DNA of 64,000 bases, taken from the NCBI RefSeq assembly GCF_009707865.1, contig NZ_WMBA01000047.1, positions 1-64,000 of the forward strand, read 5' to 3'. The translations under genes and the position numbers were made by a program. Below are positions 1,590-42,334 of this stretch, piece by piece; the stretch's first letter is position 1; each line of letters opens with the position of its first letter. The notes beneath the pieces were generated by a model. That model searched no databases. It had not been told where the DNA came from and worked only from the letters and a program-made list of their open reading frames with translations. This stretch comes from Amycolatopsis pithecellobii (GTDB lineage: Bacteria > Actinomycetota > Actinomycetes > Mycobacteriales > Pseudonocardiaceae).

Positions 1590-1602
1590 GTCCATTGTGG
1601 AC
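1590..1602. repeat. GTCCA-N3-TGGAC palindrome, copy 1
   Basis: GTCCATTGTGGAC lies between the STAS gene and sigF (the 15-bp arm extends to AGTCCA/TGGACT). Confidence 0.8.
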
Positions 1603-1604
1603 TC

Positions 1605-1961
1605 TCAGGGTCTCGCGACGAGCTGGAGGGCTGCGGGCACACTGGGCTGCAATGGCAACCGGGGCGCGAGCCCCGTCACCTCCAACGGCCTTGCCACGGC
1701 TCGCGTTGTGCCCACCAGGGCCCAGCGCAGCCGCCTGCTCAGTACAGCGCGGTCCGTATCCAGCAACACCTGGAGTCCGGCCGAGCTGAGGAAAGTGACC
1801 TCGTCGAGGTCGAGGACGAAGTCGCGCGCCGCGGCCAGCTGGTCGCCGACGAACTCGCGCAGGCGGGGTGCGCTGAGTGCGTCGATCTCGCCGGCCGTAC
1901 GGGCCAGCGTGATTCCTTGCCGCTGCTCCGTGTCGATCCGGACGTCGTTCGGTGTGTGCAC
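1605..1961 (-). CDS. STAS-domain anti-anti-sigma factor (RsbV/SpoIIAA type)
   Basis: This 118-aa single STAS domain should bind the anti-sigma kinase encoded upstream and so free the sigma factor. The loop VTFLSSAGLQVLL (about 55-67) is the phosphoacceptor region; Ser60 aligns best with the SpoIIAA phospho-serine, while the usual preceding Asp is replaced by Ser, as in many actinobacterial homologues. It starts at GTG 1961 with GGGAG about six bases upstream. It lies between the anti-sigma gene and sigF on the same strand, with gaps of 182 and 65 bases. The role is inferred from family and context. Confidence 0.88.
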   Translation of the reverse strand: MHTPNDVRIDTEQRQGITLARTAGEIDALSAPRLREFVGDQLAAARDFVLDLDEVTFLSSAGLQVLLDTDRAVLSRRLRWALVGTTRAVARPLEVTGLAPRLPLQPSVPAALQLVARP

Positions 1962-2143
1962 GGCGGCTCCCGATTCGTCGAAGGTGCTGCCGAGCGCGGA
2001 TCACATCCGGCGCTGAACCCCAAAACGCCGGTCCGTGCGTTGATTCGCGCACCCGGCGCGGCTGGCTGTCCAGCCGCTCGTCTCCCCGACCGTACGGAGC
2101 GCCAAGGCGCCATGCAAGGGAGGTCGTTCGTTCGTGAAATATC

Positions 2144-2512
2144 TCAGGCGGCGAGTCGTGCCCACACTGTTTTTCCACCGGAGGACGACGGTGTGCAGCC
2201 CCATGTCCGCGCCGCGTCCGCGATCATTTTCATGCCGTACCCGCCACGCCCGCCGTCGTCGCGCACATAGGCACGGCGAGGATTGTCGTCGGACACCGCG
2301 ATGGTCAGTTCACCGCGGCGCAGTTCCAGGCTCAGCCTGGGGGTGGATTCCGTGTGCTGGAGCGTGTTTTCCACGAGTTCGCTCGCCACGAGCTCGGCCT
2401 CGCCGGTCAGTGTGGGGACGTGCCAGCCTTCGCATATCCCGTCCACGAACCGACGTGCCCTGCGCGGCGCTTCGGGAGTCCTCACCAGCGTGATCTCCGC
2501 ATGGTTTCGCAT
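2144..2512 (-). CDS. Anti-sigma factor, HATPase_c serine kinase (RsbW/SpoIIAB type)
   Basis: This 122-aa GHKL ATPase-fold protein has the N-box [10 protein letters not shown] (residues 45-54, Asn49) and a glycine-rich G2-like segment [15 protein letters not shown] (about 87-101). Family members bind a sigma factor and phosphorylate the STAS antagonist. The usual G1 box DxGxG is degenerate here (SDDNPR, about 74-79), so ATP binding or kinase activity may be weak or altered. It is the first gene of the leftward partner-switching operon and follows a strong SigF-type promoter, which suggests autoregulation of the module. Confidence 0.87.
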
Positions 2513-2548
2513 CTGCCTTCAGCTCCTACCTCTCAGGACGGCGGAGTA

Positions 2549-2574
2549 ATACCCTCCGTCACCATCGGCGAAAC
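2549..2574 (-). promoter_or_regulatory. SigF/SigB-type promoter of the anti-sigma/antagonist/sigma operon
   Basis: On the minus strand there is GTTT (2574-2571), a 16-base spacer, then GGGTAT (2554-2549). This matches the SigF/SigB-family consensus GTTT-N14-17-GGGTA exactly. Transcription would begin near 2541, about 30 bases before the anti-sigma start at 2512. The sigma factor encoded in the operon would thus amplify its own operon, as in other sigF/sigB loci. The motif is seen directly; its use is inferred. Confidence 0.75.
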
Positions 2575-2600
2575 AAGCCGGAACCAGGGGGTTGCCTGGC

Positions 2601-2626
2601 TTTTGGCGCGGGAGGACAGTGGGTAA
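2601..2626 (+). promoter_or_regulatory. Possible second SigF-type promoter, facing ctaD
   Basis: TTTT (2601-2604), a 16-base spacer and GGGTAA (2621-2626) lie 38 bases before the ctaD start. The -10 fits the SigF consensus well; the -35 has T instead of G at its first base. If real, ctaD and the sigma operon are divergently transcribed by the same sigma factor. Confidence 0.45.
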
Positions 2627-2664
2627 GCCAGGTCAGCACTGAGTGCGACGAAGGCGAGGATGCG

Positions 2665-4428
2665 ATGACCGAAATGCGCGCCCGGCCCATCGTCCTGGGT
2701 AACCGCTACGACCTCCCGGCCCGGCACCGGCGAGGGCGTGCCATTCTGCGCCTGGCCAGGACGACCGATCACAAGCAGATCGGGCTGCTGTACTTGTTCA
2801 CCTCGCTCGGGTTTTTCGTGGTGGGCGGTGCGATGGCGCTGCTGATGCGGGCCGAGCTGGCGCGTCCCGGCCTGCAGTTCCTGTCGAACGAGCAGTACAA
2901 CCAGTTGTTCACGATGCACGGCACGATCATGTTGCTGTTGTACGCGACGCCGAACCTCTTCGCCTTCGCCAACCTGGTGCTGCCGCTGCAGATCGGCTCG
3001 CCCGATGTCGCCTTTCCGCGACTGAACGCCTTTTCGTACTGGCTGTTCCTGTTCGGCGGACTGATCGTGTTGTCGTCGTTCGCGACACCCGGCGGTGCCG
3101 CCGATTTCGGCTGGACCGCGTACAACCCGCTGGCGGATTTCACGCATTCACCGGGTATCGGCGGAAATCTCTGGGCGGCGGGGCTCATCGTGTCCGGGCT
3201 CGGGACCATTCTCGGCGCGGTCAATATGGTGACCACCATCGTGACCCTGCGCTGTCCGGGGATGACGATGTGGCGGATGCCGATCTTCACCTGGAACATC
3301 CTGTTCACGTCGATTCTGGTGCTCGCGGTGTTCCCGATCCTGACGGCCGCCCTGTTCGCGCTGCTGGCCGACCGGATCATCGGGGCACACGCGCTCGACC
3401 CCGCCAATGGTGGCGCGATCCTGTGGCAGCACCTGTTCTGGTTCTTCGGTCATCCCGAGGTGTACATCGTCGCGTTGCCGTATTTCGGGATCGTCACCGA
3501 AATCATTCCGGTGTTCAGCCGGAAACCATTGTTCGGCTACCGCTTGATGGTGTTCGCCACCATCGGCATCACCGCGCTTTCGTTCGCGGTGTGGGCGCAC
3601 CACATGTTCGCCACCGGTGCGGTGCTGCTGCCGTTCTTCTCGTTCCTGACATTCCTGATCGCGGTGCCGACCGGGATCAAGTTCTTCAACTGGATCGGCA
3701 CGATGTGGAAGGGGCGGATCTCGTTCGAAAGTCCGATGCTGTGGGCGGTCGGCTTCCTGGTGACGTTCCTGCTCGGCGGGCTGACCGGGGTCATCCTCGC
3801 CGCACCGCCGCTGGACTTCCAAATCCACGACTCATATTTCGTGGTGGCGCATTTCCACTACGTGCTGTTCGGAACCATTGTGTTCGCCACCTTCGCCGGG
3901 GTCTATTTCTGGTTCCCGAAGATGACCGGAAGAATGCTCGACGAGAGTCTCGCGAAGCTGCATTTCTGGACCACGTTCATCGGTTTTCACGCCACGTTCC
4001 TGGTGCAGCACTGGCTCGGTGCCATGGGTATGCCACGCCGTTATGCGGACTACCTGCCGACGGACGGATTCACGTTGCTGAACACCGTTTCCACGATCGG
4101 AGCGTTCATCCTGGGTGCGTCGATGCTGCCGTTCATCTACAACGTGGTGCGCAGTTACCGGTTCGGCGATCCGGTCGAAGTGGACGATCCGTGGGGTTTC
4201 GGCAACTCGCTGGAGTGGGCCACGAGCTGCCCGCCGCCGCGGCACAATTTCACCGAATTGCCGAGGATCCGCAGTGAACGGCCCGCGTTCGAGCTGCACT
4301 ATCCGCATATGGTGGAACGCTTGCACGAGGAAGGTCACATCACGCTGACCGGCAAACCGGTCTCGCATTCGGACGCCACCGAGACACCGTCGCAGAAGGC
4401 CGCCGGGGCCAGCGCTCCGCACGAATAG
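2665..4428 (+). CDS. ctaD: Cytochrome c oxidase subunit I (aa3 type)
   Basis: This 587-aa polytopic membrane protein is the catalytic subunit of the haem-copper oxidase that reduces O2 to water and pumps protons. All expected ligands are visible: His85 in FTMHGTIM (low-spin haem), His263 and the cross-linking Tyr267 in WFFGHPEVY, the His312-His313 pair in [10 protein letters not shown] (CuB), and His396/His398 in VAHFHYV (haem a3 and a). Length and the tail [13 protein letters not shown] are typical of actinobacterial CtaD. GAGG lies five bases before ATG 2665. No ctaC, ctaE or ctaF is adjacent, so it works with subunits encoded elsewhere or is a second copy. A SigF-like promoter upstream suggests stress control. 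Confidence 0.96.
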
Positions 4429-4476
4429 CCGCGCTCTCTCTGGGTAGCCGGGAACAGGAGCTACTTGGAGGAGACG

Positions 4477-4860
4477 ATGACCGCAGAATCGCGTTCGATC
4501 CCGCAGCTGGTCAAGGACATGTCCGAGCAGACACGTCGTCTTGTGCGCGACGAGATGCGTATCGCGGAGGCCGAACTCAAAGAGGGCGGCAAGCGCGCCG
4601 GTATCGGCGCCGGGCTGGGTGGCTTCGCGGCCGTCATCGCGTTTCTCGGTGGCGGGGCGCTGGTCGCAGCCGCTGTGCTGGCGCTGGCACTGGTGCTGCC
4701 GGGCTGGGCCGCCGCGGTGATCGTCGGCGCGGTGCTCTTCGCGGCGGCGGGTCTTTTCGCGCTGGCCGGTAAGAAGCAGGTCCAGTCGGCGGCGCCCACG
4801 GAGACCGCGGACGAGATGCGCAAGGACGTCGACCTGATGCGGGGGCACAGTCATGCCTGA
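4477..4860 (+). CDS. Phage holin-superfamily III / DUF1469-like membrane protein
   Basis: The 127-aa protein has an N-terminal amphipathic helix (residues 1-40, charged, SIPQLVKDMSEQTRRLVRDEMRIAEAELKEG) and two hydrophobic segments (about 48-70 and 76-98), the layout of the actinobacterial phage_holin_3_6 family. Despite the name these are chromosomal envelope proteins of uncertain role. GGAGGAG at 4467-4473 fixes ATG 4477 as the start, rather than the in-frame TTG at 4465. Its stop overlaps the next start by eight bases, so the two are translationally coupled. It is probably co-transcribed with the DUF3618 gene and the 53-aa gene that follow. Confidence 0.85.
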   Translation: MTAESRSIPQLVKDMSEQTRRLVRDEMRIAEAELKEGGKRAGIGAGLGGFAAVIAFLGGGALVAAAVLALALVLPGWAAAVIVGAVLFAAAGLFALAGKKQVQSAAPTETADEMRKDVDLMRGHSHA

Positions 4861-5884: not shown

Positions 5885-6081
5885 GCCTGGCACCGACCGC
5901 AGCCGGTTTCTGACTGTCCAAAGTGGATGTAACCGCGGCACGTCCGGCCGACGTCAAGGTTGACCGAACTTGCTGGGAATACGGAAAGATCCCCCCGTCC
6001 CATCGCCAAACTCACAGGAAATTGCCAGCAAAACCCGGGATGATGGACGTAGCGGTTCGAGCGGTCGAGGGGAGGGGACTC

Positions 6082-7266: not shown

Positions 7267-7300
7267 GCGGCTGCTTCCCTTGTCTGGGGGAGCGGCGGAG

Positions 7301-7735: not shown

Positions 7736-8920
7736 ATGCTGCGTGTGGGGCTCACCGGCGGGATCGGTGCGGGCAAATCGACGGTCGCGGCCCGGCTCGC
7801 GGAGCATGGGGCGGTGCTGATCGACGCCGACAAGCTCGCTCGTGAGGTGGTCGAGCCGGGAACCGAGGGGCTCGCCGCGCTCGTCGAGGAGTTCGGCGCA
7901 GGCATACTCACCGTCGAAGGGGCGCTCGATCGGCCGGCGCTCGCCGCGAAGGCGTTCGCCGACGAGGGCTCGCGCCAGCGGCTCAACGGCATCCTGCATC
8001 CGCTCATCGGTGCGCGCACGGCCGAGCTGATGGCGGCCGCGGCACCCGACGCGATCGTCGTGCACGACGTCCCGCTGCTGGTCGAAGGTGGCATGGCGGC
8101 CAACTACCACCTGGTGCTGGTGGTCGATGCGCCGGTCGAGGTGCGGGTTCGCCGGCTTGTGGATGCCCGCGGCATGGCCGAGGCCGACGCGCGGGCACGC
8201 ATCGCGGCACAGGCGACCGGCGAGCAACGACGCGCGGCCGCGGATGTCTGGCTCGACAACGGGAGCACCCCGGACATCGTGGTGGCCGAAGTGGACCGGC
8301 TGTGGGCGGACCGGCTCGTCCCGTACGAGGCGAACCTCCGGCTGCGCCGTCGGCGCCCGCAGATGTCTCCGAAAATCGTGCCCTACAACGAAGAATGGCC
8401 CGCGCAGGCGGCCCGCGCGCTCGCGCGGGTCCGGCGTGCGGCGGGTGAGCGGGCGCTGCGGGTCGATCACATCGGTTCGACCTCGGTGCCAGGGTTGCCC
8501 GCCAAGGACATTGTGGACCTCCAGCTGGTCGTGTCCACTTTGGAGGATGCCGACGCGCTCGCGGAAGCGTTGCTGGACGCGGGTTTCCCGCGCACGGAGG
8601 GGGAGTGGACGGACACTCCACAGGACGGCTCGAGGCCATGGCCCAAACGCGTGCACACCGGTGGTGATCCGGGCCGCGCGGTGAACCTGCACGTGCGCTC
8701 GACCGAAACTCCGGCCTGGCGCCTCGCCCTGCTGTTCGCCGGCTGGCTTCGCGGCAATCCCGGTGAGCGTGAGGCTTACGCCGAGGTGAAACGACAGCTC
8801 GCCGAAGCCCACGCGGGCGATGGCAGCATCGGTGCTTACGCCGCCGAAAAACAGGGCTGGGTCAACGAAGCCTTCCGCCGCGCCGAGACCTGGGCCGCCA
8901 CGACAGGCTGGACTCCCTGA
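7736..8920 (+). CDS. coaE: Dephospho-CoA kinase fused to a GrpB domain
   Basis: The N-terminal half (about residues 1-200) is dephospho-CoA kinase, the last step of coenzyme A synthesis: P-loop LTGGIGAGKST (5-15), then IDADKLAREVVEPG, VHDVPLLVEGGMAANY and an Arg-rich lid. The C-terminal half (about 205-394) is a GrpB/UPF0157 nucleotidyltransferase-like domain: IVPYNEEWP, VDHIGSTSVPGLPAKDIVDLQLVV, and HTGGDPGRAVNLHVR. The CoaE-GrpB fusion is standard in actinobacteria (M. tuberculosis Rv1631, from memory); the GrpB part appears to aid folding or regulation. The start is ATG 7736, just before the P-loop. The neighbouring DUF402 and uvrB genes follow the same synteny. Confidence 0.95.
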   Translation: MLRVGLTGGIGAGKSTVAARLAEHGAVLIDADKLAREVVEPGTEGLAALVEEFGAGILTVEGALDRPALAAKAFADEGSRQRLNGILHPLIGARTAELMAAAAPDAIVVHDVPLLVEGGMAANYHLVLVVDAPVEVRVRRLVDARGMAEADARARIAAQATGEQRRAAADVWLDNGSTPDIVVAEVDRLWADRLVPYEANLRLRRRRPQMSPKIVPYNEEWPAQAARALARVRRAAGERALRVDHIGSTSVPGLPAKDIVDLQLVVSTLEDADALAEALLDAGFPRTEGEWTDTPQDGSRPWPKRVHTGGDPGRAVNLHVRSTETPAWRLALLFAGWLRGNPGEREAYAEVKRQLAEAHAGDGSIGAYAAEKQGWVNEAFRRAETWAATTGWTP

Positions 8921-8921
8921 A

Positions 8922-9449
8922 TCAGTGTCGCTGCCAGGAAAGCTCGATGTCCATTGTGGACAGCCAATCGTGGATCTTGTAGCCGTGCGCGGCCAGCCCG
9001 CCGACGGTGGCGTAGGCGATCTCCAGTGCGCGCCGCGCGTCGGCAGGGCTGATCAGCCCGGCCGCGGACGCGGCGAGCAGCTCATCGGTGTCGAGCACCT
9101 GCAGGCCGCGTCCTTCGCGTAGCACGATGTCGAGGTACCAGTCGGTGGAGCGCCACACGTCGCCGTCACGATCGATGTGCACGACGTCGAGGTAGAAGTC
9201 CTGGTCCCGCTCATGCCCTGGACTGAACCAGAAGTCGGTCAGCCGCAACCCGAGTCCGGGCAGCAGCCATGACTCCAGATAGTGGAACTGTGCGCGCCCG
9301 GGGGTGGGACGTGCGAGGTAGAGGCCGAACGGCTCCACCCGGTATTGCTCGACTTTCCGGAGGTGGCCCTTCGGATCCGTGTTCGTGCCCGCGGCGACGT
9401 CGAAGGTTTCGATCTTCGGCGGGTGGATCGTCCCCGCGTGCTCTGTCAT
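8922..9449 (-). CDS. DUF402 domain protein (putative nucleoside phosphatase family)
   Basis: The 175-aa protein carries a DUF402 barrel in its middle: WFSPGHERDQDFYLDVVHIDRDGDVWRSTDWYLDIVLREGRGLQVLDTDEL (about 72-125), with the acidic cluster typical of divalent-metal nucleotide phosphatases in this family. It is convergent with coaE, one base apart. The same gene order, coaE then a reverse DUF402 gene then uvrB, occurs in mycobacteria as I recall it. Substrate unknown. A palindrome GTCCATTGTGGAC sits inside the gene at 8949-8961. Confidence 0.82.
   Translation of the reverse strand: MTEHAGTIHPPKIETFDVAAGTNTDPKGHLRKVEQYRVEPFGLYLARPTPGRAQFHYLESWLLPGLGLRLTDFWFSPGHERDQDFYLDVVHIDRDGDVWRSTDWYLDIVLREGRGLQVLDTDELLAASAAGLISPADARRALEIAYATVGGLAAHGYKIHDWLSTMDIELSWQRH
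8949..8961. repeat. GTCCA-N3-TGGAC palindrome, copy 2
   Basis: GTCCATTGTGGAC lies inside the DUF402 gene (arms extend to TGTCCA/TGGACA). On that strand it is read as TCC-ACA-ATG-GAC, using the rare Thr codon ACA. Confidence 0.8.
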
Positions 9450-11588: not shown

Positions 11589-13802
<2,214 letters not shown>

Positions 13803-15694: not shown

Positions 15695-18504
15695 CGTGCC
15701 TCCTCCCCAACCAGACGCAGGAACGCGTCCTCCAGCCGGCGCCGCGGCCCGGCCTGCTCGACCCTGACCCCGGCGCCCACCAGCGCGGCCACCGCCTCGG
15801 CGCGTGGCAGCCCGTCGAGATCCGCGTGCACCAGCTCGCCTTCGATGTCCACTTCGGACACTCCGGGCGTCGAGCGCAGCACACCCGCCGCCGCTTCCGG
15901 GTCGTCGACCCGGAAGGTCGCTTCACCGCCCGCCGCGGCGAGATCGCTGACCTCGCCGGACGCGACGAGCGCGCCGCGGTGCATGACGACCACATGCGAA
16001 CAGGTCTGCTCGACTTCGGCCAGCAGATGGCTCGACACGACCACGGTGCGCCCGGTCGCCGCGTAGCGCTGCAGGACCTCGCGCATCTGGTGGATCTGGG
16101 GCGGGTCGAGCCCGTTGGTGGGTTCGTCGAGCACGAGCAGCTCCGGCAGGCCGAGCATCGCCTGTGCGATGGCGAGTCGTTGCCGCATGCCCTGGCTGTA
16201 GGTGCGGACCTTGCGATGGACCGCGTTGCCGAGGCCGGCGATTTCCAGTGCCTCGGCGAAATGCGCCTTCTCCGCGGGGCGACCGGTGGCGTCCCAGTAC
16301 AGCCGCAGGTTCAGCTCACCGGACAGGTGCGGCAGGAAACCCGAACCCTCCACAAAGGACCCGATCCGCGACAGCACCGGCGCGCCGGGATGCACCTCGT
16401 GGCCGAATACCCTGATCTGCCCGGCCGTCGGCGTGATCAGGCCCATCAGCATGCGCAGGGTCGTTGTTTTCCCGGCGCCGTTGGGTCCGAGCAGGCCCAG
16501 CACCTGGCCCGGCTCCACCCGGAACGACAGGTTCTTGACGGCGGTCACCCCACCCGGATAGGCCTTGGTCAGGCCTTCGATCACCAGCGGCACCTCGGCC
16601 AGTTCCGGATCCGCGCGGCCCGCCCGGCGCCGGCGCAGCCCGGCGATGACCGTCACCGCCAGCGCGGCGATCAGCACCCCCGCGATGCCCAGGAGGTTGC
16701 CCAGCGGCCAGCCGCCGCCGACGGCGTTGCCGGGGACGACGGGCACCGAAAGTCCGCCGTCGAGCGAGATTTGGTACCCCGCAGGGGAAACCGGCGTCGC
16801 GTAGGCCTGGTCGGTGGTGGTGACCACGACTTGCAGCGCGTGCCCGGACTCGATGGGTCGCACGACGCCGGCGAGCGCCACGGTCATCTCGGCCGCGCCG
16901 CCGGCCAGCGGAACCCGGATCGGCGCGACCGCATTGCCCGGTAGCGCACGGGTCCCGTCCGGGCTGACGTCGTACAGCTTCACGAACAACACCGCGTCCG
17001 GGGTGGTGCCCGCGACGCGCAGCCGGACCGTCGGTGAGCCGGCCACCAGCAGTTGTGAATCCAGCGGTGCACTGGTGAACCGCGCGGACTGGCCGGGCGG
17101 GTCGATGCCGAACAGACCGGACACCCGCGAGGACCCGGCGAGCCCGTTGAGCCCGGGTATCCCGCTGACCGCAGCCGGCGTCCCGCCCGGCGGGTTGGTC
17201 ACCGTCTGCGGCCGGGAACCCAGCGTGACTTCCTTGCGCTGCACCGGATCCCCGCCCAGACCGGGGTAGTCCGGCGCGTTGAGGATGCGCACCGACGGCG
17301 TGCCCGAGGCCCGCAGCGATCCTTGTACGTCGTAGGCGAACCCGGTGACCGGGTTGCTGCCCTCCCCGGTGAGCTGGAACCACAACCAGTCCGCGACCTT
17401 CGCGCGCAGCTGTGGTCCCGGCCCGCCGCCGTCGTGCCCGCCCGCGTACCAGATCAGTTGTACTTTCCCGCCCGCCGCGGCGATCTGGCGCGCGTTCGCG
17501 TCGGCCTGCTCCAGCCCGAACAGCGTGTCGGCCTCGCCCTGCACCAGCAGCGTGGGCGCGGTGATCCGGTTCGTCACCGACGCCGGGGACAACCGCCGCA
17601 GCAGCTCCACGGTCGCCGCACTGGCGCGGCCGGTGGTCGCGAGTTCCGTGTAGGCCTGGCAGATCTGCGCGGTGAAGCGGCCGCACACGCTGCTCGCCGG
17701 CGGCAGTTGCGCCGGTGCACCCGCCGCTCCGGAACCGCCGCCGCCCCCGGTGGCGCTCTGCGCGTTGTCGGTGCCGGCCTGTCCCGGCTCGGGTGCCTCG
17801 CCGAGGGCGCCCGTGGAGGTGCCCGCGGCGAAGAGGATCCCGGCCCACGACCGCTTGAACACCCCGTCGGCGCCGAACACCCCGGTCGCCGGAGTGGTGG
17901 CCACCGGGGCGGTGCCCGCGGCGTTCGGGACGAGTGCCTGCCCGAGATCGTTGTAGGTGATTTCCGGGGAGATAGCGTCGATGCGCTTGTCCTGCCCCGC
18001 AAGCAGAAGCGCCAGCGCCCCACCGTAGGACGCGCCGACGACACCGACGCGCGGATCGTTCGGGCCGTCGAGCCGGACGTCCGGTCGCTTCGCGAGGAAG
18101 TCGACCAGATGCGCCGCGTCGGCGACTTCGAGATCAGGGTCGTTGAGCCCGATCTGACCCGTGCTGTGCCCGAACCCGCGCGCAGACCAGGTCAGCACGA
18201 CGAACCCGCGTCGCGCCAGCTCCTGCGCCTCGTCCGCGACGCCGGTCTTGTCGGCGCCGAAACCGTGTGGCAGCAACAATGCCGGCGCCGGGGTGGTGGC
18301 AGGCAGGTAGAGGGTGGTGTCCAGGCGCACCTGGTCGGCCGAGCCGGGAGCGGCGGGCACATCGAGCACGGCGTCCTGGTGGGCGACCGGCGCGGGACCG
18401 CGGTTCGCAGTCACCCACACGGTGACGGCGGCGAGGAGCACCACCACCACACCGAGTGTCAGCAGCCGGCCGCGGCGGGTGTGCGGTAGTGGGTTACGGG
18501 GCAC
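15691..18504 (-). CDS. Extracytoplasmic alpha/beta hydrolase fused through a membrane helix to an ABC ATPase
   Basis: One 937-aa chain joins two unlike enzymes. Residues 12-32 form a membrane anchor. Residues about 45-590 form a CocE/X-Pro dipeptidyl-peptidase-like alpha/beta hydrolase, with nucleophile Ser159 in GASYGG, Asp326 in GEADTLFG, His357 in GGHDGG, and a C-terminal beta-sandwich region. A Gly-rich linker loop (253-262) lies inside the hydrolase. A second helix (about 602-622), followed by RRRR, returns the chain to the cytoplasm. Residues 640-937 are an ABC ATPase: Walker A GPNGAGKT (673-680), signature YSQGMRQR (769-776), Walker B LLVLDEP (789-795), His826. Start GTG 18504. It is coupled to the permease gene by GTGA. 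The topology suggests an exporter with a tethered outer hydrolase acting on its own substrate. Confidence 0.9.
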   Translation of the reverse strand: MPRNPLPHTRRGRLLTLGVVVVLLAAVTVWVTANRGPAPVAHQDAVLDVPAAPGSADQVRLDTTLYLPATTPAPALLLPHGFGADKTGVADEAQELARRGFVVLTWSARGFGHSTGQIGLNDPDLEVADAAHLVDFLAKRPDVRLDGPNDPRVGVVGASYGGALALLLAGQDKRIDAISPEITYNDLGQALVPNAAGTAPVATTPATGVFGADGVFKRSWAGILFAAGTSTGALGEAPEPGQAGTDNAQSATGGGGGSGAAGAPAQLPPASSVCGRFTAQICQAYTELATTGRASAATVELLRRLSPASVTNRITAPTLLVQGEADTLFGLEQADANARQIAAAGGKVQLIWYAGGHDGGGPGPQLRAKVADWLWFQLTGEGSNPVTGFAYDVQGSLRASGTPSVRILNAPDYPGLGGDPVQRKEVTLGSRPQTVTNPPGGTPAAVSGIPGLNGLAGSSRVSGLFGIDPPGQSARFTSAPLDSQLLVAGSPTVRLRVAGTTPDAVLFVKLYDVSPDGTRALPGNAVAPIRVPLAGGAAEMTVALAGVVRPIESGHALQVVVTTTDQAYATPVSPAGYQISLDGGLSVPVVPGNAVGGGWPLGNLLGIAGVLIAALAVTVIAGLRRRRAGRADPELAEVPLVIEGLTKAYPGGVTAVKNLSFRVEPGQVLGLLGPNGAGKTTTLRMLMGLITPTAGQIRVFGHEVHPGAPVLSRIGSFVEGSGFLPHLSGELNLRLYWDATGRPAEKAHFAEALEIAGLGNAVHRKVRTYSQGMRQRLAIAQAMLGLPELLVLDEPTNGLDPPQIHQMREVLQRYAATGRTVVVSSHLLAEVEQTCSHVVVMHRGALVASGEVSDLAAAGGEATFRVDDPEAAAGVLRSTPGVSEVDIEGELVHADLDGLPRAEAVAALVGAGVRVEQAGPRRRLEDAFLRLVGEEAR

Positions 18505-22211: not shown

Positions 22212-22846
22212 TTCAGCTGCTCGCACACCCGGCCGAGCGGGATGTCCAGACCAGGATGATCCAGCGGCAGCAACACATCCGGCTCGGCGGGCAGCGCGTC
22301 GCCGGCCGGCGGGTCCCACAGGCACACGGCGGGCCCGCCACCGTCCATTGAGGACCGGTACCACACCCCGTCGATGCCGGGGAAGGCCGCGCGGATCGCA
22401 CGTGCCCAGGCTTGCGTGATTTTCTTGGGGCCGCTGGAAATCTCCTGGGAAGCACCCACCCTGGTCGGCCACAGTCCGGACAGGTCCAGCAACCGCAAGG
22501 TCCGGGTCGGGCGGACCACGACGAGCTGCGGGCCCTTGGTGCGACGGTCCACAACGGACGATTCCTGGAACACCTCGGCGACGCTGGTGCGCACGGAGAG
22601 TCCGAAGTAGACGACACCGTTGCCGGGATCGTGCACCGCGGCACCGCCGTGCCCCGGTTGCTGCTGATCGAACCGGCCATGCGGCAGCGGACCGGTGCGG
22701 CGGAAGGAATTCCACTGTTGCGGGTGGTGGCCGCGCGCGCTGAAAACGCGGACGAGCCGGGTGGCCGGGTGCACCGCGACGATGTCCTCGTCACGCAGCT
22801 CACCGACCAGCACGGCGCGATCAGGCGGCAGAGGTAGCCGGGCCAT
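22193..22846 (-). CDS. RES-domain toxin (NAD+ phosphorylase/glycohydrolase family)
   Basis: The 217-aa protein has a RES domain: VRVFS (32-36), GRFD with Arg58, GVVYFGLSVRTSVAEVFQE (77-95; Tyr80, Glu91), RTLRLLDLSGLW (115-126) and GVWYRSS (160-166). These are the Arg-Tyr-Glu-Ser type residues that give the family its name and its NAD+-degrading active site in known toxins (MbcT, Res). It follows a gene whose C terminus resembles the Xre/MbcA/ParS toxin-binding domain, in the usual antitoxin-first order, 60 bases apart. Its own Shine-Dalgarno is weak. Toxicity is inferred from the family. Confidence 0.82.
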   Translation of the reverse strand: MARLPLPPDRAVLVGELRDEDIVAVHPATRLVRVFSARGHHPQQWNSFRRTGPLPHGRFDQQQPGHGGAAVHDPGNGVVYFGLSVRTSVAEVFQESSVVDRRTKGPQLVVVRPTRTLRLLDLSGLWPTRVGASQEISSGPKKITQAWARAIRAAFPGIDGVWYRSSMDGGGPAVCLWDPPAGDALPAEPDVLLPLDHPGLDIPLGRVCEQLNYILLS

Positions 22847-23530: not shown

Positions 23531-24502
23531 TCAGTGCCGGGTGCTGCCGCGCGGGATGAGGTGGGCGCCCAGAATCGTCACCACCGGCGGGTGGGCGGGT
23601 TCGGCGATGCGGGCCAGCAGCAGGCGCGCCGCCTCCGCGCCGATTTCGCGCGCGGGCTGTGCGACGACGGTCAGCGACGGGTTGATCAGCGTCGTCCACG
23701 GCGCGTCGTCGAAGGCAACCACGCCGACGTCTCGGCCCGGCCGCAGCCCCGCCTCGGCGAGCACTTCCAGTACCCCGATCGCCATCGAACTGTTGGCCAC
23801 CAGCAACGCGTCCGGTGAGTCGGCGAGCAGGTCCCTCGCGGCCTGCCTGCCCCCGGTCGTGCGGTATTCGGCCCGCCGTTCCAGGCGCGGGCTGCGTCCG
23901 TGTAGCGCGTCGCGGTACCCGGCGACCCGGTCGTCGGCGGTGCGCACCCCGGGCGGACCGCCGATACAGCCGATGCGCGTGTACCCGGCGGCGATGAGAT
24001 GCTCGGTCGCCTCCCGGGCGGCGCGCCGGGAATCCACCAGCACCTGGTCACACGCGATGAGCGGCCGGTCGACCGCGACCACCGGGGTGCCGCCGCGGCG
24101 AAGCCGTTCGATGCTCGGCGAGGCGCCGGTCGGCGACAGCACCACGCCGGCGACGCGTTCCTGCAGCGCGACATCGATGTAGCGCCGCTCCTTTTCCGGG
24201 TTCTCGTCGGAGTTGCACAGCACCACCGAGTAGCCCGCGGTCTGGGCGGTGTCCTCGACGCCACGGGCGATCGCGGTGAAGAAGGGGTTCTCCACGTCCG
24301 AGATGATCAGCGCGAACACGGCTGTCTCCCGGCGGCGCAGGTTCCTGGCCGGCCCGTTGGGCTGATAGCCCAGCTCATCGGCCGCCGACCGCACCCGTTC
24401 CGCCAGTGCGGGGTCCACTGTGGACTTTCCGTTGAGCGCCCGGGACACCGTCGCCGTGGAAACCCCGGCGAGGTGGGCCACGTCGTTGATCGTCGCCACC
24501 AC
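23531..24502 (-). CDS. LacI-family transcriptional regulator
   Basis: The 323-aa repressor has the LacI HTH and hinge at the N terminus (TINDVAHLAGVSTATVSRALNGKSTVDPALAERVRSAADELGYQPNGPARNLR, about 4-56) and a periplasmic-binding-protein-like effector domain. The hinge and effector pocket suggest a sugar or nucleoside ligand, but no transport or catabolic genes adjoin it. An operator-like palindrome lies 55 bases upstream of its GTG start, suggesting autoregulation. A GTCCACTGTGGAC palindrome falls in the HTH coding part at 24413-24425. Confidence 0.92.
   Translation of the reverse strand: MVATINDVAHLAGVSTATVSRALNGKSTVDPALAERVRSAADELGYQPNGPARNLRRRETAVFALIISDVENPFFTAIARGVEDTAQTAGYSVVLCNSDENPEKERRYIDVALQERVAGVVLSPTGASPSIERLRRGGTPVVAVDRPLIACDQVLVDSRRAAREATEHLIAAGYTRIGCIGGPPGVRTADDRVAGYRDALHGRSPRLERRAEYRTTGGRQAARDLLADSPDALLVANSSMAIGVLEVLAEAGLRPGRDVGVVAFDDAPWTTLINPSLTVVAQPAREIGAEAARLLLARIAEPAHPPVVTILGAHLIPRGSTRH
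24413..24425. repeat. GTCCA-N3-TGGAC palindrome, copy 3
   Basis: GTCCACTGTGGAC lies in the HTH-coding part of the LacI gene, read TCC-ACA-GTG-GAC (STVD), again using ACA. Confidence 0.8.
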
Positions 24503-30290: not shown

Positions 30291-33152
30291 GTGGCTGATC
30301 GCCTCGTTGTTCGCGGCGCCCGCGAGCACAATCTCCGTGGCGTCGATCTCGACCTGCCCCGGGACAGCCTGATCGTGTTCACCGGGCTGTCCGGCTCGGG
30401 CAAGTCGAGCCTCGCCTTCGACACGATCTTCGCCGAGGGCCAGCGCCGTTACGTGGAATCGCTGTCGGCGTACGCCCGCCAGTTCCTCGGGCAGATGGAC
30501 AAACCCGACGTGGACTTCATCGAGGGCCTGTCGCCCGCGGTGTCGATCGATCAGAAGTCCACGTCGCGCAACCCGCGGTCCACGGTGGGCACGATCACCG
30601 AGGTCTACGACTACCTGCGGTTGCTGTACGCGAGGGCGGGCAAGGCGCACTGCCCGCAGTGTGGCGAGCTGATCAGCAAGCAGACCCCGCAGCAGATCGT
30701 CGATCAGGTGCTCGAAATGGAGCCGGGCACCCGGTTTCAGGTCCTCGCGCCGGTGGTGCGCGGTCGCAAGGGGGAGTACGTCGATCTGTTCGCGAACCTG
30801 CAGCAGCAGGGGTATTCGCGCGCGCTCGTCGACGGGCAGGTGTATCAGCTCACCGATCCGCCGAAGCTGAAAAAGCAGGAGAAGCACAACATCGGCGTCG
30901 TGGTCGACCGGCTCTCGGTCAAGTCCTCGTCGAAGCAGCGCCTGACCGACTCGGTGGAGACCGCGCTGCGCCTCGCGGACGGGCTGCTGGAGCTGGAGTT
31001 CGTGGACCTGCCCGAACACGACCCGCACCGGATCCGCGGTTTTTCCGAGAATCTGGCCTGTCCCAACGGGCATCCGCTCGCGATCGAGGATCTCGAGCCG
31101 CGCTCGTTCTCGTTCAACTCGCCGTACGGCGCCTGCCTGGAATGCACCGGGCTCGGCATCCGCAAGGAGGTCGACCCGGAGCTCGTCGTCCCGGATGACG
31201 AGCTGTCCCTCGAGGAGGGCGCGATAGCGCCGTGGGCGGGTGGCCAGAGCGCCGACTACTTCCAGCGGCTGCTGGAGTCATTGGCGGAGACCATCGGGTT
31301 CCGGATGGACACGCCGTGGCGCACCTTGCCCGCGAAGGTGCAGAAGGCGGTGCTGCACGGGGTGAACGAGCAGGTGCACGTCCGCTACCGCAACCGGTAC
31401 GGCCGTCAGCGTTCGTACTACGCGAACTTCGAGGGCGTGATCCCCTTCCTGGAACGGCGGCTCGAGCAGACCGACTCGGAACAGATGCGCGAGCGCTACG
31501 AGGGGTACATGCGCGAGGTGCCGTGCCCGGCCTGCCAGGGCGCCCGGCTGAAGCCGGAGATCCTCGCGGTCACCCTGGAACACGCCGAGCAGGGTGACCG
31601 TTCGATCGCCGAGGTGTGTGCGCTGTCGATCGAGGAGGCCTCGGGGTTCCTCGACGGGCTCCGGCTCGACAGCCGCCAGAGCATGATCGCGGGCGCGGTG
31701 CTCAAGGAGATCCAGGCGCGGCTGCGCTTCCTGCTGGATGTCGGGCTGAACTACCTCTCGCTCGACCGGGCCTCGGCCACCTTGTCCGGTGGTGAGGCGC
31801 AGCGCATCCGGCTCGCCACGCAGATCGGCTCCGGTCTGGTCGGGGTGCTCTACGTGCTGGACGAACCGTCGATCGGCTTGCACCAGCGGGACAACCACCG
31901 GCTGATCGAGACGCTGAGCAGGCTGCGGGATCTGGGCAACACGCTGATCGTCGTCGAGCATGACGAGGACACGATCCGTTCCAGCGACTGGGTGGTGGAC
32001 ATCGGTCCGGGCGCGGGGGAGCACGGTGGCCGGGTTGTCCACAGTGGACCGTACAAGAAACTGTTGCGTAGTAAGGAATCCCTCACCGGACAGTACCTGT
32101 CCGGGCGGCGCGCCATCGCGGTGCCGGGCATCCGCCGTCCGGTGGATCGCAAGCGCAGGCTGACGGTCGTCGGCGCACGCGAGCACAACCTGCGCGGCGT
32201 GGACGTGTCGTTCCCGCTGGGGTGCCTGGTCTCGGTCACGGGAGTGTCGGGCTCGGGCAAGTCCACGCTGGTGAACGACATCCTCGCGACGGTGCTGGCG
32301 AACAAGCTCAACGGCGCTCGTCAGGTGCCCGGCAGGCACACCCGGGTCCGCGGGCTCGATCTGGTGGACAAGCTCGTGCGGGTGGACCAGTCGCCGATCG
32401 GCCGCACCCCGCGGTCCAACCCGGCGACGTACACCGGCGTGTGGGACCACGTGCGCAAGCTGTTCGCGGCCACCACGGAAGCGAAGGTCCGCGGCTACCA
32501 GCCGGGCCGGTTCTCGTTCAACGTCAAGGGCGGCCGGTGCGAGGCGTGCGCCGGGGACGGCACGATCAAGATCGAGATGAACTTCCTGCCGGACGTGTAT
32601 GTCCCGTGCGAGGTGTGCAAGGGCGCGCGGTACAACCGCGAGACGCTGGAGGTGCACTACAAGGGCAAGACGGTGTCGGACGTGCTCGACATGCCGATCG
32701 AGGAGGCGGCCGAGTTCTTCGAGCCGATCAAGGCGATTCACCGGCATCTGCAAACGCTGGTGGACGTCGGTCTCGGTTACGTCCGGCTCGGCCAGCCCGC
32801 GCCGACCCTGTCCGGCGGTGAGGCGCAGCGGGTGAAGCTGGCGAGCGAGTTGCAGAAGCGGTCCACCGGCAAGACGGTGTACGTGCTGGACGAGCCGACG
32901 ACCGGGCTGCACTTCGAGGACATCAGCAAACTGCTCGGCGTGATCAACGGCCTGGTCGACAAGGGCAACACGGTGATCGTCATCGAGCACAACCTCGACG
33001 TGATCAAGACTTCCGACTGGATCGTCGACATGGGCCCGGAAGGCGGTTCAGGTGGCGGCACCGTCGTGGCGGAGGGCACGCCGGAAGAGATCGCCGGGAT
33101 CGAGGAAAGCCACACGGGCCAATACCTGCGGACAGTGCTGACCCCGGCCTGA
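30291..33152 (+). CDS. uvrA: Excinuclease ABC subunit A
   Basis: UvrA (953 aa) is the damage-sensing ATPase of nucleotide excision repair. It has two ABC modules: Walker [17 protein letters not shown] (about 27-42) and [15 protein letters not shown] (about 647-661), two LSGGEAQR signatures, and [12 protein letters not shown] / [12 protein letters not shown] Walker B regions. The second zinc finger CEACAG...CEVCKG is intact (about 751-781). It starts at GTG 30291. I did not find a clear LexA-type palindrome immediately upstream. A 22-bp tandem repeat begins eight bases after its stop. One GTCCACAGTGGAC palindrome is inside at 32037-32049. Confidence 0.97.
32037..32049. repeat. GTCCA-N3-TGGAC palindrome, copy 4
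   Basis: GTCCACAGTGGAC lies in uvrA, read GTC-CAC-AGT-GGA (VHSG), using the rare Ser codon AGT. Confidence 0.8.
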
Positions 33153-33267: not shown

Positions 33268-33439
33268 TCGCCGTGGGGTGCGCAGCCGCGGCCCGGGTCG
33301 CCTGGCGGCACTGCTGGCCTGCTGCCCCCGCCACGTGACGCGCCCCAACGAGGTCCCCCCACTGCCGCCACCCCCGGCGAAGCCACACCGTCCACTTCGG
33401 ACTCCAGCGGCGCCGGCGACAGTCACGCATACTCACGTC

Positions 33440-37747: not shown

Positions 37748-38163
37748 CTCAGGGATATCCACAGCAGCAGTACCCGATCCTGTTGTCCACGATGAACGAT
37801 TTGCCGGGCTACCAGGTCGTGCGGGTGTTCGGCGAGGTCTTCGGGCTCACCGTGCGCAGCCGGAACATGTTCTCCACCATGGGTGCCGGATTCAAGGCGA
37901 TGGCGGGCGGTGAGCTGAAAGGTCTGTCCAAATTGCTCTCCGACTCCCGGCACGAGGCGCTGGGGCGGCTCGCTCAGGAGGCGATGAACTACGGCGCGAA
38001 CGCGGTGCTGGCATTGCGCTTCGACTGTAACGAGATCGCGCAGACGGCCAGCGAGATCGCGGCCTACGGCACCGCCGTTTACGTCGTCCCGGAAGGAACT
38101 CAGCAACAGCCGCAGCAGCAACAACCCCAGCAATACCCACTGAAGGCCTACCCACAGCAATAA
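37744..38163 (+). CDS. YbjQ/UPF0145-family protein
   Basis: The 139-aa protein has the YbjQ core: ILLSTMNDLPGYQVVRVFGEVFGLTVRSRNM (about 11-41) and ARHEALGRLAQEAMNYGANAVLALRFD-like sequence (about 72-100), which forms a pentameric fold of unknown function sometimes labelled heavy-metal-binding. It ends with a Gln/Pro-rich tail. ATG 37744 overlaps the regulator stop (ATGA), so it is the third gene of the two-component operon; a functional link is not evident. Nothing is visible in 38164-38289. Confidence 0.88.
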   Translation: MTQGYPQQQYPILLSTMNDLPGYQVVRVFGEVFGLTVRSRNMFSTMGAGFKAMAGGELKGLSKLLSDSRHEALGRLAQEAMNYGANAVLALRFDCNEIAQTASEIAAYGTAVYVVPEGTQQQPQQQQPQQYPLKAYPQQ

Positions 38164-39351: not shown

Positions 39352-39361
39352 ACCGAACCTC

Positions 39362-40747
39362 CTACACGAAGCCCATCACGATGGCGGCGACGGCGAAACC
39401 GGATACCGACAGCAGTGTTTCCAGCACAGTCCACGATTTCAGGGTTTCGGCCACCGTCAACCCGAAGTACCGGGACACGATCCAGAACCCGCCGTCGTTG
39501 ACGTGCGAGGCGATGATCGACCCGGCCGAGATGGCGACCACGAGCAGCGCCAGCTGCACCTGCGAATAGCCGAGTTCGGAGACCGTGGGGGCGATGATGC
39601 CGCTCGTGGTCACGATGGCGACGGTCGCCGAGCCCTGCGCGACCCGCAGCCCGCAACTGATCACGTATGCCGCGAGGATCACCGGAAGACCGGCGTTGTG
39701 CAACGAGTCCGCGACGGCCTTGCCGATCCCGGTCGCGGCGAGCACGGCGCCGAAGAACGCGCCCGCGCCGACGACGAGCAGGATCATGGCGACCGGCCGA
39801 AGCGCCGACCCGGCCAGCTCGGACAGCTCCTTGCCGGTGAGCCCGCGGCGGTAGCCGAGCAACCACGAGGCGAGCAGCACGGTGATCGTCAGCGCCACCA
39901 CGGGGGTACCGACGAACGTCGCGACGCCGGCGAGCCGGGATCCGGCGGGCAGCCAGATACTCCCGAAGGTGCCCGCGAGAATCAGCACCAGTGGCACCGC
40001 GATGATCCGGGCGACCAGTCCGAGTGACGGCGGGTCGGTGTCCTCCTCTTCGTCGTCGGCGACGATCATGTCCTGCGGCACCGGGATGTTCATCCGCTTG
40101 CCGATCCAGCTCGGGAACAGCACACCGCTGACGAACCACGCAGGGATGCCGCACACCGCACCCATCAGGATGATCCAGCCGAGGTCCACATGCAACAGTC
40201 CCGCCGCGGCGACCGGGCCGGGGTGTGGCGGGATGAACGCATGCGTCATGGACAGGCCCGCGAGCAGGGGCAGGCAGTACAACAGGATCGAACGTCCGCC
40301 CTGCCGTGCGGCCACGTACACCAGCGGCGCCAGTACGAAGATGCCGATGTCGAAGAACACCGGGATACCGAAGATCAGCCCCGCCAGGCCCATCGCCAAT
40401 GGCGCGCGCTTCTCTCCGAACGCCCGCAGCAGCCCGCCGGTCAGCACCCGGGCGCCACCGGAACGCTCCAAAATGGACCCGAGCAGGGTACCGAGCCCGA
40501 TGATCGCCGTGATGTGCCCGAGTATGCTGCCGAACCCCTTTTCCAGCAACGAATCCGAGGTTTTCTGTGCAGTACCGACGATCGTGCCGACCGGAAGACC
40601 GGCGGCGAGCGCGGTCAGCAAACCGACCACGATCAGCGCGATGAACGGCTCGACTTTCCAGCTGATGATCAGCAGGAGAAGGACGGCGATGGACGCGGCG
40701 GCGAGGACGAGCAACCCGCCCGTTGTGTGCTGCAACCAGTGGATCAA
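39362..40747 (-). CDS. GntP-family permease, probably DsdX-like
   Basis: The 461-aa protein has about 12 transmembrane segments and matches the gluconate:H+ symporter family: LIVVGLLTALAAGLPVG, GFGSILGHITAIIGLGTLLGSILERSGGA, HAFIPPHPGPVAAA (about 168-181), and SGLRVAQGSATVAIVTT-like sequence (about 362-378). The family includes the D-serine transporter DsdX. Because it follows a D-aminoacylase and a D-serine deaminase-like gene, D-amino acid uptake is more likely than gluconate. TTG 40747 has GGAGG five bases upstream and overlaps the previous stop (TTGA). Confidence 0.9.
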   Translation of the reverse strand: MIHWLQHTTGGLLVLAAASIAVLLLLIISWKVEPFIALIVVGLLTALAAGLPVGTIVGTAQKTSDSLLEKGFGSILGHITAIIGLGTLLGSILERSGGARVLTGGLLRAFGEKRAPLAMGLAGLIFGIPVFFDIGIFVLAPLVYVAARQGGRSILLYCLPLLAGLSMTHAFIPPHPGPVAAAGLLHVDLGWIILMGAVCGIPAWFVSGVLFPSWIGKRMNIPVPQDMIVADDEEEDTDPPSLGLVARIIAVPLVLILAGTFGSIWLPAGSRLAGVATFVGTPVVALTITVLLASWLLGYRRGLTGKELSELAGSALRPVAMILLVVGAGAFFGAVLAATGIGKAVADSLHNAGLPVILAAYVISCGLRVAQGSATVAIVTTSGIIAPTVSELGYSQVQLALLVVAISAGSIIASHVNDGGFWIVSRYFGLTVAETLKSWTVLETLLSVSGFAVAAIVMGFV

Positions 40748-42327
40748 GCGGACCTCCGTCGGAGAGAGTGCCCGGCGAGCGTGCCGGTGGGGGACCCGTC
40801 GTCGAGCGCGGCGATGCCGTTCACGAAGACGTAGGGGATGCCCTCGGCCTGCTGCCTCGGGTCGTCGAAGGTGGCGGTGTCCCGGACGGTGTCCGGGTCG
40901 AACAGCACGAGATCGGCGGCGTAGCCCTCTTTGATGAGACCGCGATCGGCCAGCCGCAGCCGCCGCGCGGGCCGTCCGGTCAGATGTGCGATGCACTCGG
41001 CCAGTTCGAGCACACCCAGTTCGCGCACATAGCGCGCCAGGTAACGGGGAAAGGTGCCCCACGCGCGTGGATGCGGACGGTCGCCGACCAGCAGCCCGTC
41101 GCTGCCGCCGGTGTGCGTGCGATGCCGCATGATGGTCTGGACGTTATCTTCGTGCCCGACGTGCATCAGACACGAAGTGCCGAGCCGTTCGGAGACCAGC
41201 ACGTCGAAATACAGCTGTGCGGCGGGAATCCCGGCGCGGCGGGCGGATTCGGCGACGCTGTGACCGACGAGATGCACGTTCTCCGCCTTGCGCACGCCGT
41301 TGATCTCGATGCTGTCCCAGTCGATCGGCACCCCGTGCGCGCCGTCCGAACCGATCTCCTCGATATCCGCCCGGATCCGCTCGCGGGTGTCCACATCAGA
41401 CAGTCGCGCCAGTGTCGCCGCCAGGCCGCCGTCGGCCGCCCAGCTCGGGAGCAGGGCGGACAGGACGGTGGAACCCGGCAGATAGGGGTAGGTGTCGAGC
41501 GAGATATCGGCTCCGTCGTCGAGCGCCTCGTCGATCAGGCGCAGCAACTCGGGCGCCTTTCCTTTGTTCACCGAGAAGTTCATCGTCGCGTGCGCCAGGT
41601 GCAGCGGGCAGTTCGCGCGCCGGCAGACGTCGATCATTTCCGTGTACGCCGCCAGCGCGTCCTTGCCGTAGCTGCGGTGGTGGGGGCTGTAGTAGCCGCC
41701 GAGGGAACCGACGACCTCGCACAGCGCGACGAGTTCTTCGGTGCTCGCGTACATCCCGGGCGTGTAGGTCAGACCCGAGGACATACCCATTGCGCCTTCG
41801 CGCAGGCCGGTCGCGACCAGTTCGCACATCCGGTCCACTTCGGACTCCGTGGCGGGCCGGTCGCCGGAACCGACGGCGAGCATCCGCACGGTTCCTTGCG
41901 GCACAAGGTAAGCGGCGTTGACCGCGATACCTTCGTCGAGCCGGTCAAGGTACTCGCCGACCGATCTCCAGGTCCAGGCGAAGTTGTCCGGGTCGTCGTT
42001 CCAGCCGGCGATGTGTTCGCGTATCGCCGCGAGTGTCGTGTCGTCGACCGGGGCGTAGGACAGCCCGTCCTGGCCGAGTACCTCGGTGGTGACCCCCTGG
42101 GAAAGCTTCGCCAGATGGTCCGGCCGGGCGAGTAGCTGCAGGTCGGAGTGTGCGTGCATGTCGATGAATCCGGGTGCCAGCACGAGATCGCCGGCGTCCA
42201 GGACCCGGGTGCCGGTGAGCGCACCGCCGATCGCGGCGATGCGTCCGTCACGGATTCCGACATCGGTACGGACCAATGGCGCGCCCGTGCCGTCGGCGAC
42301 GCGCGCGCCCCGGATGACAATGTCCAT
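40744..42327 (-). CDS. N-acyl-D-amino-acid deacylase (D-aminoacylase, amidohydrolase superfamily)
   Basis: The 527-aa amidohydrolase begins with a beta-sandwich strand (IVIRGARVADGTGAPLVRTDVGIRDGRIAAIG) and metal site GFIDMHAHSD (about 53-62); later come SSGLTYTPGMYAS (about 184-196), LHLAHATMN, VHLVGHS and CLMHVGHEDNVQTIMRH, all close to D-aminoacylases. It should cleave N-acetyl- or N-formyl-D-amino acids. It lies between the PLP deaminase and the permease on the leftward strand. The palindrome GTCCATTGTGGAC overlaps its ATG. Confidence 0.9.
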   Translation of the reverse strand: MDIVIRGARVADGTGAPLVRTDVGIRDGRIAAIGGALTGTRVLDAGDLVLAPGFIDMHAHSDLQLLARPDHLAKLSQGVTTEVLGQDGLSYAPVDDTTLAAIREHIAGWNDDPDNFAWTWRSVGEYLDRLDEGIAVNAAYLVPQGTVRMLAVGSGDRPATESEVDRMCELVATGLREGAMGMSSGLTYTPGMYASTEELVALCEVVGSLGGYYSPHHRSYGKDALAAYTEMIDVCRRANCPLHLAHATMNFSVNKGKAPELLRLIDEALDDGADISLDTYPYLPGSTVLSALLPSWAADGGLAATLARLSDVDTRERIRADIEEIGSDGAHGVPIDWDSIEINGVRKAENVHLVGHSVAESARRAGIPAAQLYFDVLVSERLGTSCLMHVGHEDNVQTIMRHRTHTGGSDGLLVGDRPHPRAWGTFPRYLARYVRELGVLELAECIAHLTGRPARRLRLADRGLIKEGYAADLVLFDPDTVRDTATFDDPRQQAEGIPYVFVNGIAALDDGSPTGTLAGHSLRRRSA

Positions 42328-42334
42328 TGTGGAC
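42322..42334. repeat. GTCCA-N3-TGGAC palindrome, copy 5
   Basis: GTCCATTGTGGAC overlaps the ATG of the D-aminoacylase gene (start 42327) and the gap after the deaminase gene. Confidence 0.8.

Follow-up and report, generated by a model that had tools for sequence, protein, structure and literature searches.

A highly iterated 13-bp palindrome, GTCCACWGTGGAC, in the chromosomes of Pseudonocardiaceae and its probable maintenance at the level of the DNA

We analysed a stretch of 64,000 nt from Amycolatopsis pithecellobii (contig NZ_WMBA01000047.1, positions 1 to 64,000; hereafter the window), in which the gapped palindrome GTCCA-N3-TGGAC occurs in five perfect copies. When one mismatch was allowed, 22 copies were found, compared with 2.65 expected (standard deviation 1.62; maximum of 7 in 100 dinucleotide-preserving shuffles). 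The copies lie among genes that include uvrA, uvrB, and several arg genes (Table 1); the genes and frames were called using a simple purpose-made open reading frame caller, not taken from an annotation. Among the 80 highest-ranking of 583 relatives in named genomes, ArgJ identity was highest with A. alkalitolerans (91%), followed by A. bartoniae (89%) and A. acididurans (87%). A sequence-only reading of the window had reported the five perfect copies, and our rescan found all of them where it had placed them (1590, 8949, 24413, 32037, and 42322); its expectation of 0.06 perfect copies per 64 kb agrees with our composition estimate of 0.063. The relaxed copies that it listed are also real and lie within a few bases of the listed positions, at 5916, 8533, 40466, and 44422 and, for the copies of GTCCACTTCGGAC, at 15847, 33390, and 41833.

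Table 1. Copies of GTCCA-N3-TGGAC with at most one mismatch in the window.
Position	Copy	Sequence	Location	Aligned relatives
1590..1602	perfect	GTCCATTGTGGAC	at probable start of sigma-70-type gene (766-1584, minus)	
5916..5928	one mismatch	GTCCAAAGTGGAT	over possible GTG start of LytR_cpsA_psr gene	
8533..8545	one mismatch	GTCCACTTTGGAG	in gene 7724-8920	perfect in the single aligned relative, G496
8949..8961	perfect	GTCCATTGTGGAC	in DUF402 gene 8922-9449 (minus)	perfect in the single aligned relative, G496
13266..13278	one mismatch		in uvrB	
15847..15859	one mismatch	GTCCACTTCGGAC	in gene 15691-18504 (minus)	GTCCACAGTGGAC in G494
22343..22355	one mismatch	GTCCATTGAGGAC		kept in 1/4
22547..22559	one mismatch			perfect in 4/4
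24413..24425	perfect	GTCCACTGTGGAC	in LacI-type regulator gene	identical in 4/4
30578..30590	one mismatch		in uvrA	1-3 mismatches
32037..32049	perfect	GTCCACAGTGGAC	in uvrA	identical in 5/6
33390..33402	one mismatch	GTCCACTTCGGAC	intergenic	
37785..37797	one mismatch			one mismatch likewise in 6/6
40466..40478	one mismatch	CTCCAAAATGGAC		kept in 0/2
41833..41845	one mismatch	GTCCACTTCGGAC	in amidohydrolase gene	
42322..42334	perfect	GTCCATTGTGGAC	over start codon of gene 40744-42327 (minus)	perfect in 1/4
44422..44434	one mismatch	GTCCACAGTGGAT		
53562..53574	one mismatch		in argC	
54212..54224	one mismatch		in argJ	same column in 12/33 other Pseudonocardiaceae loci
55935..55947	one mismatch		near argD start	perfect in 5/6; same column in other genera
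58086..58098	one mismatch		at argR start	
58518..58530	one mismatch	GTCTACTTTGGAC	at argR end	identical in 6/6

The source genome (7.90 Mb in 144 contigs) contains 412 perfect copies of the core word GTCCA-N3-TGGAC, compared with 3 copies of the reversed pattern and 7.8 expected from composition. The overrepresentation proposed in the sequence-only reading therefore holds genome-wide, as the count is not near that of the control palindrome. In 464 kb of this genome, the 3-base spacer alone was enriched (27 copies), and the other spacers from 0 to 15 bases gave 0–2 copies. No other 5-base arm at the N3 spacer matched both the count and the ratio; the next were CGTCT (3 versus 0.2 expected) and GATCG (17 versus 4.5). 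Because the centre is mostly C-W-G (W, A or T), the full 13-bp word is written GTCCACWGTGGAC. It occurs 160 times in the source genome, where composition predicts approximately 0.3 copies, and 640, 405, and 500 times in genomes G008, G068, and G125, respectively (controls 0–1).

The word tolerates change in a graded manner, as a protein-binding site would. In the same 464 kb, the A5→G and A5→T variants were enriched 12.8-fold (38 copies) and 11.8-fold (16 copies), respectively, and the changes of G1 to A or C were enriched 8–10-fold. C4 was seldom changed, in only 4 copies, of which 1 carried G and 3 carried T (the latter 14-fold on 0.21 expected). G534 and G545, which belong to other families, showed the same spacer, the same centre, and enrichment of A5→G and A5→T. 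Past the 13 bases, the flanks exhibited no strong conservation; they were somewhat AT-richer, and G was avoided at −1. After allowing for codon usage, the two half-sites were roughly balanced in the variants (in G068 one side was favoured, 12:3, although the numbers are small), and therefore the word behaves as a DNA dyad. As in other highly iterated palindromes, perfect copies are far above composition and the one-base neighbours are enriched.

When palindromes with 5-base arms were ranked, GTCCA-N3 came first in G008 and the source genome and second to its own inner part in G068; it was absent from the leading palindromes in G219 and in four pools of other families. Other overrepresented palindromes were observed elsewhere. 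CGCGTACGCG occurred 29 times versus 2.9 expected in 240 kb of G534 (G534:C1:1-240000, L218–L229). CGACC-N1-GGTCG occurred 50 times versus 6.2 expected in a Micromonospora pool of 11 loci (L064, L069–L072, L075, L083, L094, L096, L100, and L102), a count that may be inflated by shared descent because the loci are orthologous.

The word is common in much of the Pseudonocardiaceae. Elsewhere in the order it occurs patchily in a few families, and the other samples have near-chance numbers. Among 249 genomes of the family, the core word ranged from 1 to 1018 copies (controls 0–18), and 209 genomes had at least one full word (controls 0–2). The genera differed sharply: the full word occurred 640 times in the single sampled genome of g9 (G008), 330–500 times in g17, 323–426 times in g34, 189 and 277 times in g2, and 24–160 times in the source genus. 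It was absent from all 15 genomes of g42, and g5, g24, and g38 had 0–2 copies. We also counted the full word in 34 named genomes (32 of the 33 family loci of the ArgJ set, with L041 omitted, and two others). The carriers were Amycolatopsis (n = 9, 52–228 copies), Saccharothrix (n = 3, 63–89), Lentzea (90), Kibdelosporangium (48), Actinosynnema (12 and 79), Actinokineospora (19 and 54), Actinophytocola (10 and 41), and Gandjariella (53). The counts were low in Saccharopolyspora rectivirgula (0), Actinopolyspora (0 and 1), Halopolyspora (1), Actinoalloteichus (0), Thermocrispum (2), Pseudonocardia (n = 4, 1–4), an unclassified metagenome-assembled genome of the family (2), Micromonospora (0), and Mycolicibacterium (0).

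In a phylum sample of 246 genomes, those outside the family had 0–34 core copies (controls 0–15). Some of the sampled genomes exceeded their own reversed control, for example G440 (34 versus 1) and members of family f5 (8–25 versus 1–8); G440 had no full word, and the listed centres of its core copies were mostly GC-rich, as chance would give. In an order sample of 130 genomes, of which 108 lie outside the family, five of the latter had at least three full words (G534, 237; G545, 114; G538, 37; G544, 23; and G535, 3), and the remainder had 0–2. In a tree built from four Arg proteins, Pseudonocardia splits off before the carriers do, and several deep nodes are weakly supported. The low counts in the Saccharopolyspora-Actinopolyspora-Actinoalloteichus group and in Thermocrispum are apparent losses on this tree; given the weakly supported deep nodes, separate gains are a possible alternative. 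No Pseudonocardiaceae plasmids were found among 30 of 93 plasmid records, and one search found no phage match to positions 1–20000 of the window.

We shuffled synonymous codons to separate selection on the DNA from selection on the protein. The in-gene copies fell from 22 to a mean of 1.8 in the source genome, from 30 to 2.9 in G068, and from 18 to 2.2 in G008; in the other families, they fell from 13 to 1.2 (G534) and from 9 to 0.7 (G545). Codon-pair usage, which could have accounted fully for the word, did not reproduce it in these shuffles. Perfect copies showed no preference for either genes or gaps (92 of the 111 lay within genes versus 90.6 expected), and 77 of the 92 in-gene copies used the frame nnG TCC ANN NTG GAC. 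The peptide S-T-V-D was overabundant in carriers, with 37 occurrences in 480 kb of G008, 19 occurrences in 400 kb of G068, and 11 in 464 kb of the source genome, compared with 2 in 180 kb of the non-carrier G219, and the rare codon ACT was the commonest at its second place. The sequence-only reading had noted unusual codons within the word and had proposed that the DNA word is kept rather than the protein. In three carrier genomes ACT was indeed the commonest second codon of the in-gene word, followed by ACA, AAT, and ATT, and the proposal is strongly supported by the codon shuffles, the proportional share of genes and gaps, and the S-T-V-D bias. The word is very probably maintained by an agent that acts directly on the DNA, and a putative protein probably binds there.

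In-frame copies with at most one mismatch were spread along the genes in three genomes, and by our own gene calls the sites were not concentrated in promoters, as those of a transcription-factor regulon would be. At 1590, 5916, 42322, 44422, and 58086 of the window, the NTG of the word falls on a possible start codon. A link to start codons was considered and rejected, as the three genomes gave no clear excess near gene starts.

The conservation of single sites was examined in six congeneric regions of 82–87% identity, with an alignment to at least one of them for 20 of the 22 window sites; the expectation was calculated by codon position. All ten arm bases were unchanged in 50 of 82 site-genome pairs versus 13.1 expected. 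In regards to the perfect sites, of which four of five were aligned, the arms were unchanged in 11 of 12 pairs versus 2.1 expected, and the flanks of the motif sites were slightly below the expected conservation. In other genera, the argD and argJ sites are found again in the same alignment column of the protein. Single sites also turn over, as those at 22343, 30578, 40466, and 42322 were changed or lost in several relatives. A near-match series at 49731 differs by substitutions, including the Leu codons CTC versus TTG, and a similar series across relatives was seen at 15847. The aligned coding sites of the window differed from their relatives by substitutions with no gaps; the window sites alone count for this gap test, as the sites taken from relatives had been pre-chosen as gap-free.

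In G201, a genome of approximately 7.3 Mb, full words were uniformly distributed across the first 4.41 Mb of contig C1 (50 of 86 words placed, 52 expected, Kolmogorov–Smirnov p = 0.60). From these 50 words, confinement to one chromosome region, as for a macrodomain-type site, was not observed. A 47.6-kb stretch of G008, the densest genome, contained no perfect copy (134297–181851 of G008:C1:1-300000; L136, L156–L169); it has a normal GC content (69.4%) and 10 one-mismatch copies, and may be acquired DNA. Close site pairs were found in 10 of 19 motif-rich genomes. One such pair, its two sites separated by 6 bases, has the same 32-base sequence in G008 (G008:C6:179473) and G040 and a similar one in G078, of a third genus. 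It lies inside the GMP synthase gene in G040 and G078, where the gene was read (L209:1501-1532 and L201:1501-1532); because of this location, the conserved pair is not a hub, and the idea of an autoregulated hub marked by paired sites was rejected.

A lead to a possible reader came from G491, a genome of another family of the order, which has only two full words in 4.0 Mb. These words are 33 bp apart and directly upstream of a gene whose 179-aa product has PadR and Vir_act_alpha_C domains (L258:5468-6070, G491:C3); a DUF1707 gene adjoins the PadR gene on the opposite strand. PadR-family regulators are winged-helix dimers that bind palindromes, often ahead of their own gene, and the two perfect copies ahead of the PadR gene resemble this arrangement. 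The pair looks like an autoregulated operator and therefore suggests, as a weak lead from a single genome, that a PadR-type protein may be able to read GTCCACWGTGGAC. PadR-family regulators are known as local regulators, not as chromosome-wide ones, and the other PadR genes that were inspected differ in lacking the word upstream.

The fixed spacer, the graded tolerance, the local conservation, and the promoter-independent placement are best fitted by a homodimeric protein acting chromosome-wide. GTCCACWGTGGAC would be the recognition site of a putative homodimeric sequence-specific DNA-binding protein, which would act in the manner of a nucleoid protein rather than at promoters. The sites would arise by point substitution and would then be held by selection on the DNA, strong enough to alter amino acids and to bring in rare codons. 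We give this explanation about an even chance. A more specific version, in which a dimeric regulator of Pseudonocardiaceae and a few other actinobacterial families, possibly of PadR type, would have expanded from a local operator to some hundreds or a thousand mostly in-gene sites, organising the chromosome and reshaping proteins (S-T-V-D) to keep its sites, is conceivable but doubtful. The sequence-only reading had offered three mechanisms, among which a site for a putative chromosome-organising or other DNA-binding protein is still the best.

Several observations weigh against a chromosome-wide homodimer. A reader protein was not found in any motif-rich genome. The spacing is irregular (coefficient of variation 1.38 in 300 kb of G008, with 47 sites, and 0.92 for the 50 sites of G201), and at approximately one perfect site per 6–50 kb the density is low for a role in DNA packaging. 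The 59 permuted-arm control words were also unchanged more often than expected (266 of 806 versus 151), so the excess of conservation is partly generic, and biased repair that restores the word could also yield conservation. In regards to the PadR lead, nine other PadR genes had no word upstream (8 of 19 plasmid-record matches, with 33–36% identity, and one in the motif-poor G219, with 39%). A search with the G491 protein at E ≤ 1e-4 found nothing in the motif-rich DNA covered, which is a small part of each genome, and the longest DUF1707 frame would span both words if its first TTG were the start codon.

A by-product of another process, in which an orphan DNA methyltransferase would mark the word and methylation-biased repair would create and keep it, is unlikely. 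The closest described precedent is cyanobacterial HIP1, for which Elhai proposed such an origin (PMC4390886). We searched for three methyltransferase classes. PF00145, PF01555, and PF02384 were missing in 7, 3, and 4 of the 24 motif-rich genomes, respectively, and were present in 11, 4, and 14 of the 19 motif-poor genomes. Among the three classes, G194 had PF02384 only, G006 had PF00145 only, and G066 had PF01555 only, all three genomes being motif-rich. The methylation or repair signal proposed in the sequence-only reading is weakened because none of the tested classes is present in all 24 motif-rich genomes. PF01555 is associated with the word (21 of 24 versus 4 of 19, p = 2.4e-5, uncorrected for kinship and genome size), which favours a methylation origin. 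However, when the PF01555 proteins of 18 of the 21 positive genomes were fetched and those of 17 were read (one match each, two in G034 and G016), they formed several unlike groups, with at least 6 of the 17 in one group of approximately 50–81% identity. This putative N6/N4 methyltransferase group was found in six motif-rich genomes (L238, L244, L246, L253, L254, and L255), and a C5 methyltransferase match accompanies it in G016, G226, and G232; the more distant PF01555 proteins of L239 and L250 have no SPPY motif in the sequence read. Furthermore, actinobacteria are generally held to lack MutS/MutL repair, which counts against a repair-driven origin. It is quite unlikely that the word is the ordinary operator of a single transcription factor controlling a very large regulon. 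The palindromic operator-like form, the pair ahead of the G491 PadR gene, and the overlap of 5–6 of the 22 window sites with possible start codons are in keeping with it, but the word is not enriched between genes and shows no clear excess towards gene starts in the three genomes. The even spread over the first 4.4 Mb of G201 contig C1, in genes and gaps, and the stretch of G008 without a perfect copy would fit a DNA-repair or recombination signal, either a bidirectional Chi-like word or a self-marking one; known Chi and uptake words are non-palindromic, and we consider such a signal very unlikely.

There is only a slight chance that the word reflects an RNA hairpin, a codon-pair or protein-level effect, or DnaA boxes. 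The in-gene copies do favour the frame that reads S-x-[VLM]-D, as a protein-level effect would have it, but the codon shuffles argue against a codon-pair or protein-level effect. As for a hairpin, which alone has −4.1 kcal/mol, the G·U:A·C asymmetry was 16:10 and 28:11 versus 2.3–2.4 predicted from codon usage alone, and A5→T and T9→A were about even (16 versus 14); the asymmetry may lean further in G068 (12:3), on small numbers. GTCCAC is part of the DnaA box, and TTGTCCACA occurred 9 times in 480 kb of G008 versus 0–3 times for six control words. This mild excess was seen in G008 only, as the source genome had 3 copies versus 1–4 for the controls and G068 had 3 versus 0–2, and the TT flank of TTGTCCACA is mostly absent from the word (T at −1, 0.31–0.38; at −2, 0.14–0.24). 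Single copies in two motif-poor genomes, one beside dnaN (L263) and one among DnaA-box-like sequences (L275), are taken as overlap with DnaA boxes. Least credible of all is a small mobile palindrome inserting its own copies, the third mechanism of the sequence-only reading. It would account for the high copy number and the patchy lineage spread, but it is disfavoured because nothing beyond 13 bp is common to the copies and the aligned coding sites of the window differ by substitutions without gaps; the strong frame preference also counts against it.

The word is classed as a highly iterated palindrome with a putative reader protein; no published account of it was found in the openly licensed literature searched. 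The sharp differences between genera and the positional conservation of the sites provide a natural experiment of carriers versus non-carriers. A DNA word can also bend protein sequences in a lineage-specific manner, which is a caution. Among known systems, matS, the site that a MatP dimer reads, is a palindrome of 13 bp whose 5-base arms flank a 3-base centre, and the actinobacterial word shares this 5-3-5 layout. In contrast, matS is confined to one chromosome region in a few dozen copies, whereas the actinobacterial word is evenly spread in up to about 1000 copies.

HIP1 (GCGATCGC) and the alternate HIPs are short palindromes that are hugely overrepresented, lineage-specific, and notable for their one-base neighbours (PMC4390886). 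The actinobacterial word is likewise a lineage-specific overrepresented palindrome with enriched one-base neighbours. It differs in being a gapped 13-mer with a central W and in its density of one perfect core per 6–50 kb, compared with approximately one HIP1 site per kb. Elhai's proposal for HIP1, methylation with methylation-biased repair, predicts a cognate methyltransferase (PMC4390886), whereas no tested class is common to all actinobacterial carriers. HIP1 is an unsolved puzzle, and the present word adds a second, independent iterated palindrome in another phylum. Gbn, a GATC-binding nucleoid protein of Streptomyces, reads a short word at over 2,800 bound regions (PMC9239103) and is similar in being actinobacterial and in reading a short word at many places. 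Its word is different, however, and Gbn-like proteins are reported in Pseudonocardia too (PMC9239103), yet the full word is near chance in the four Pseudonocardia genomes.

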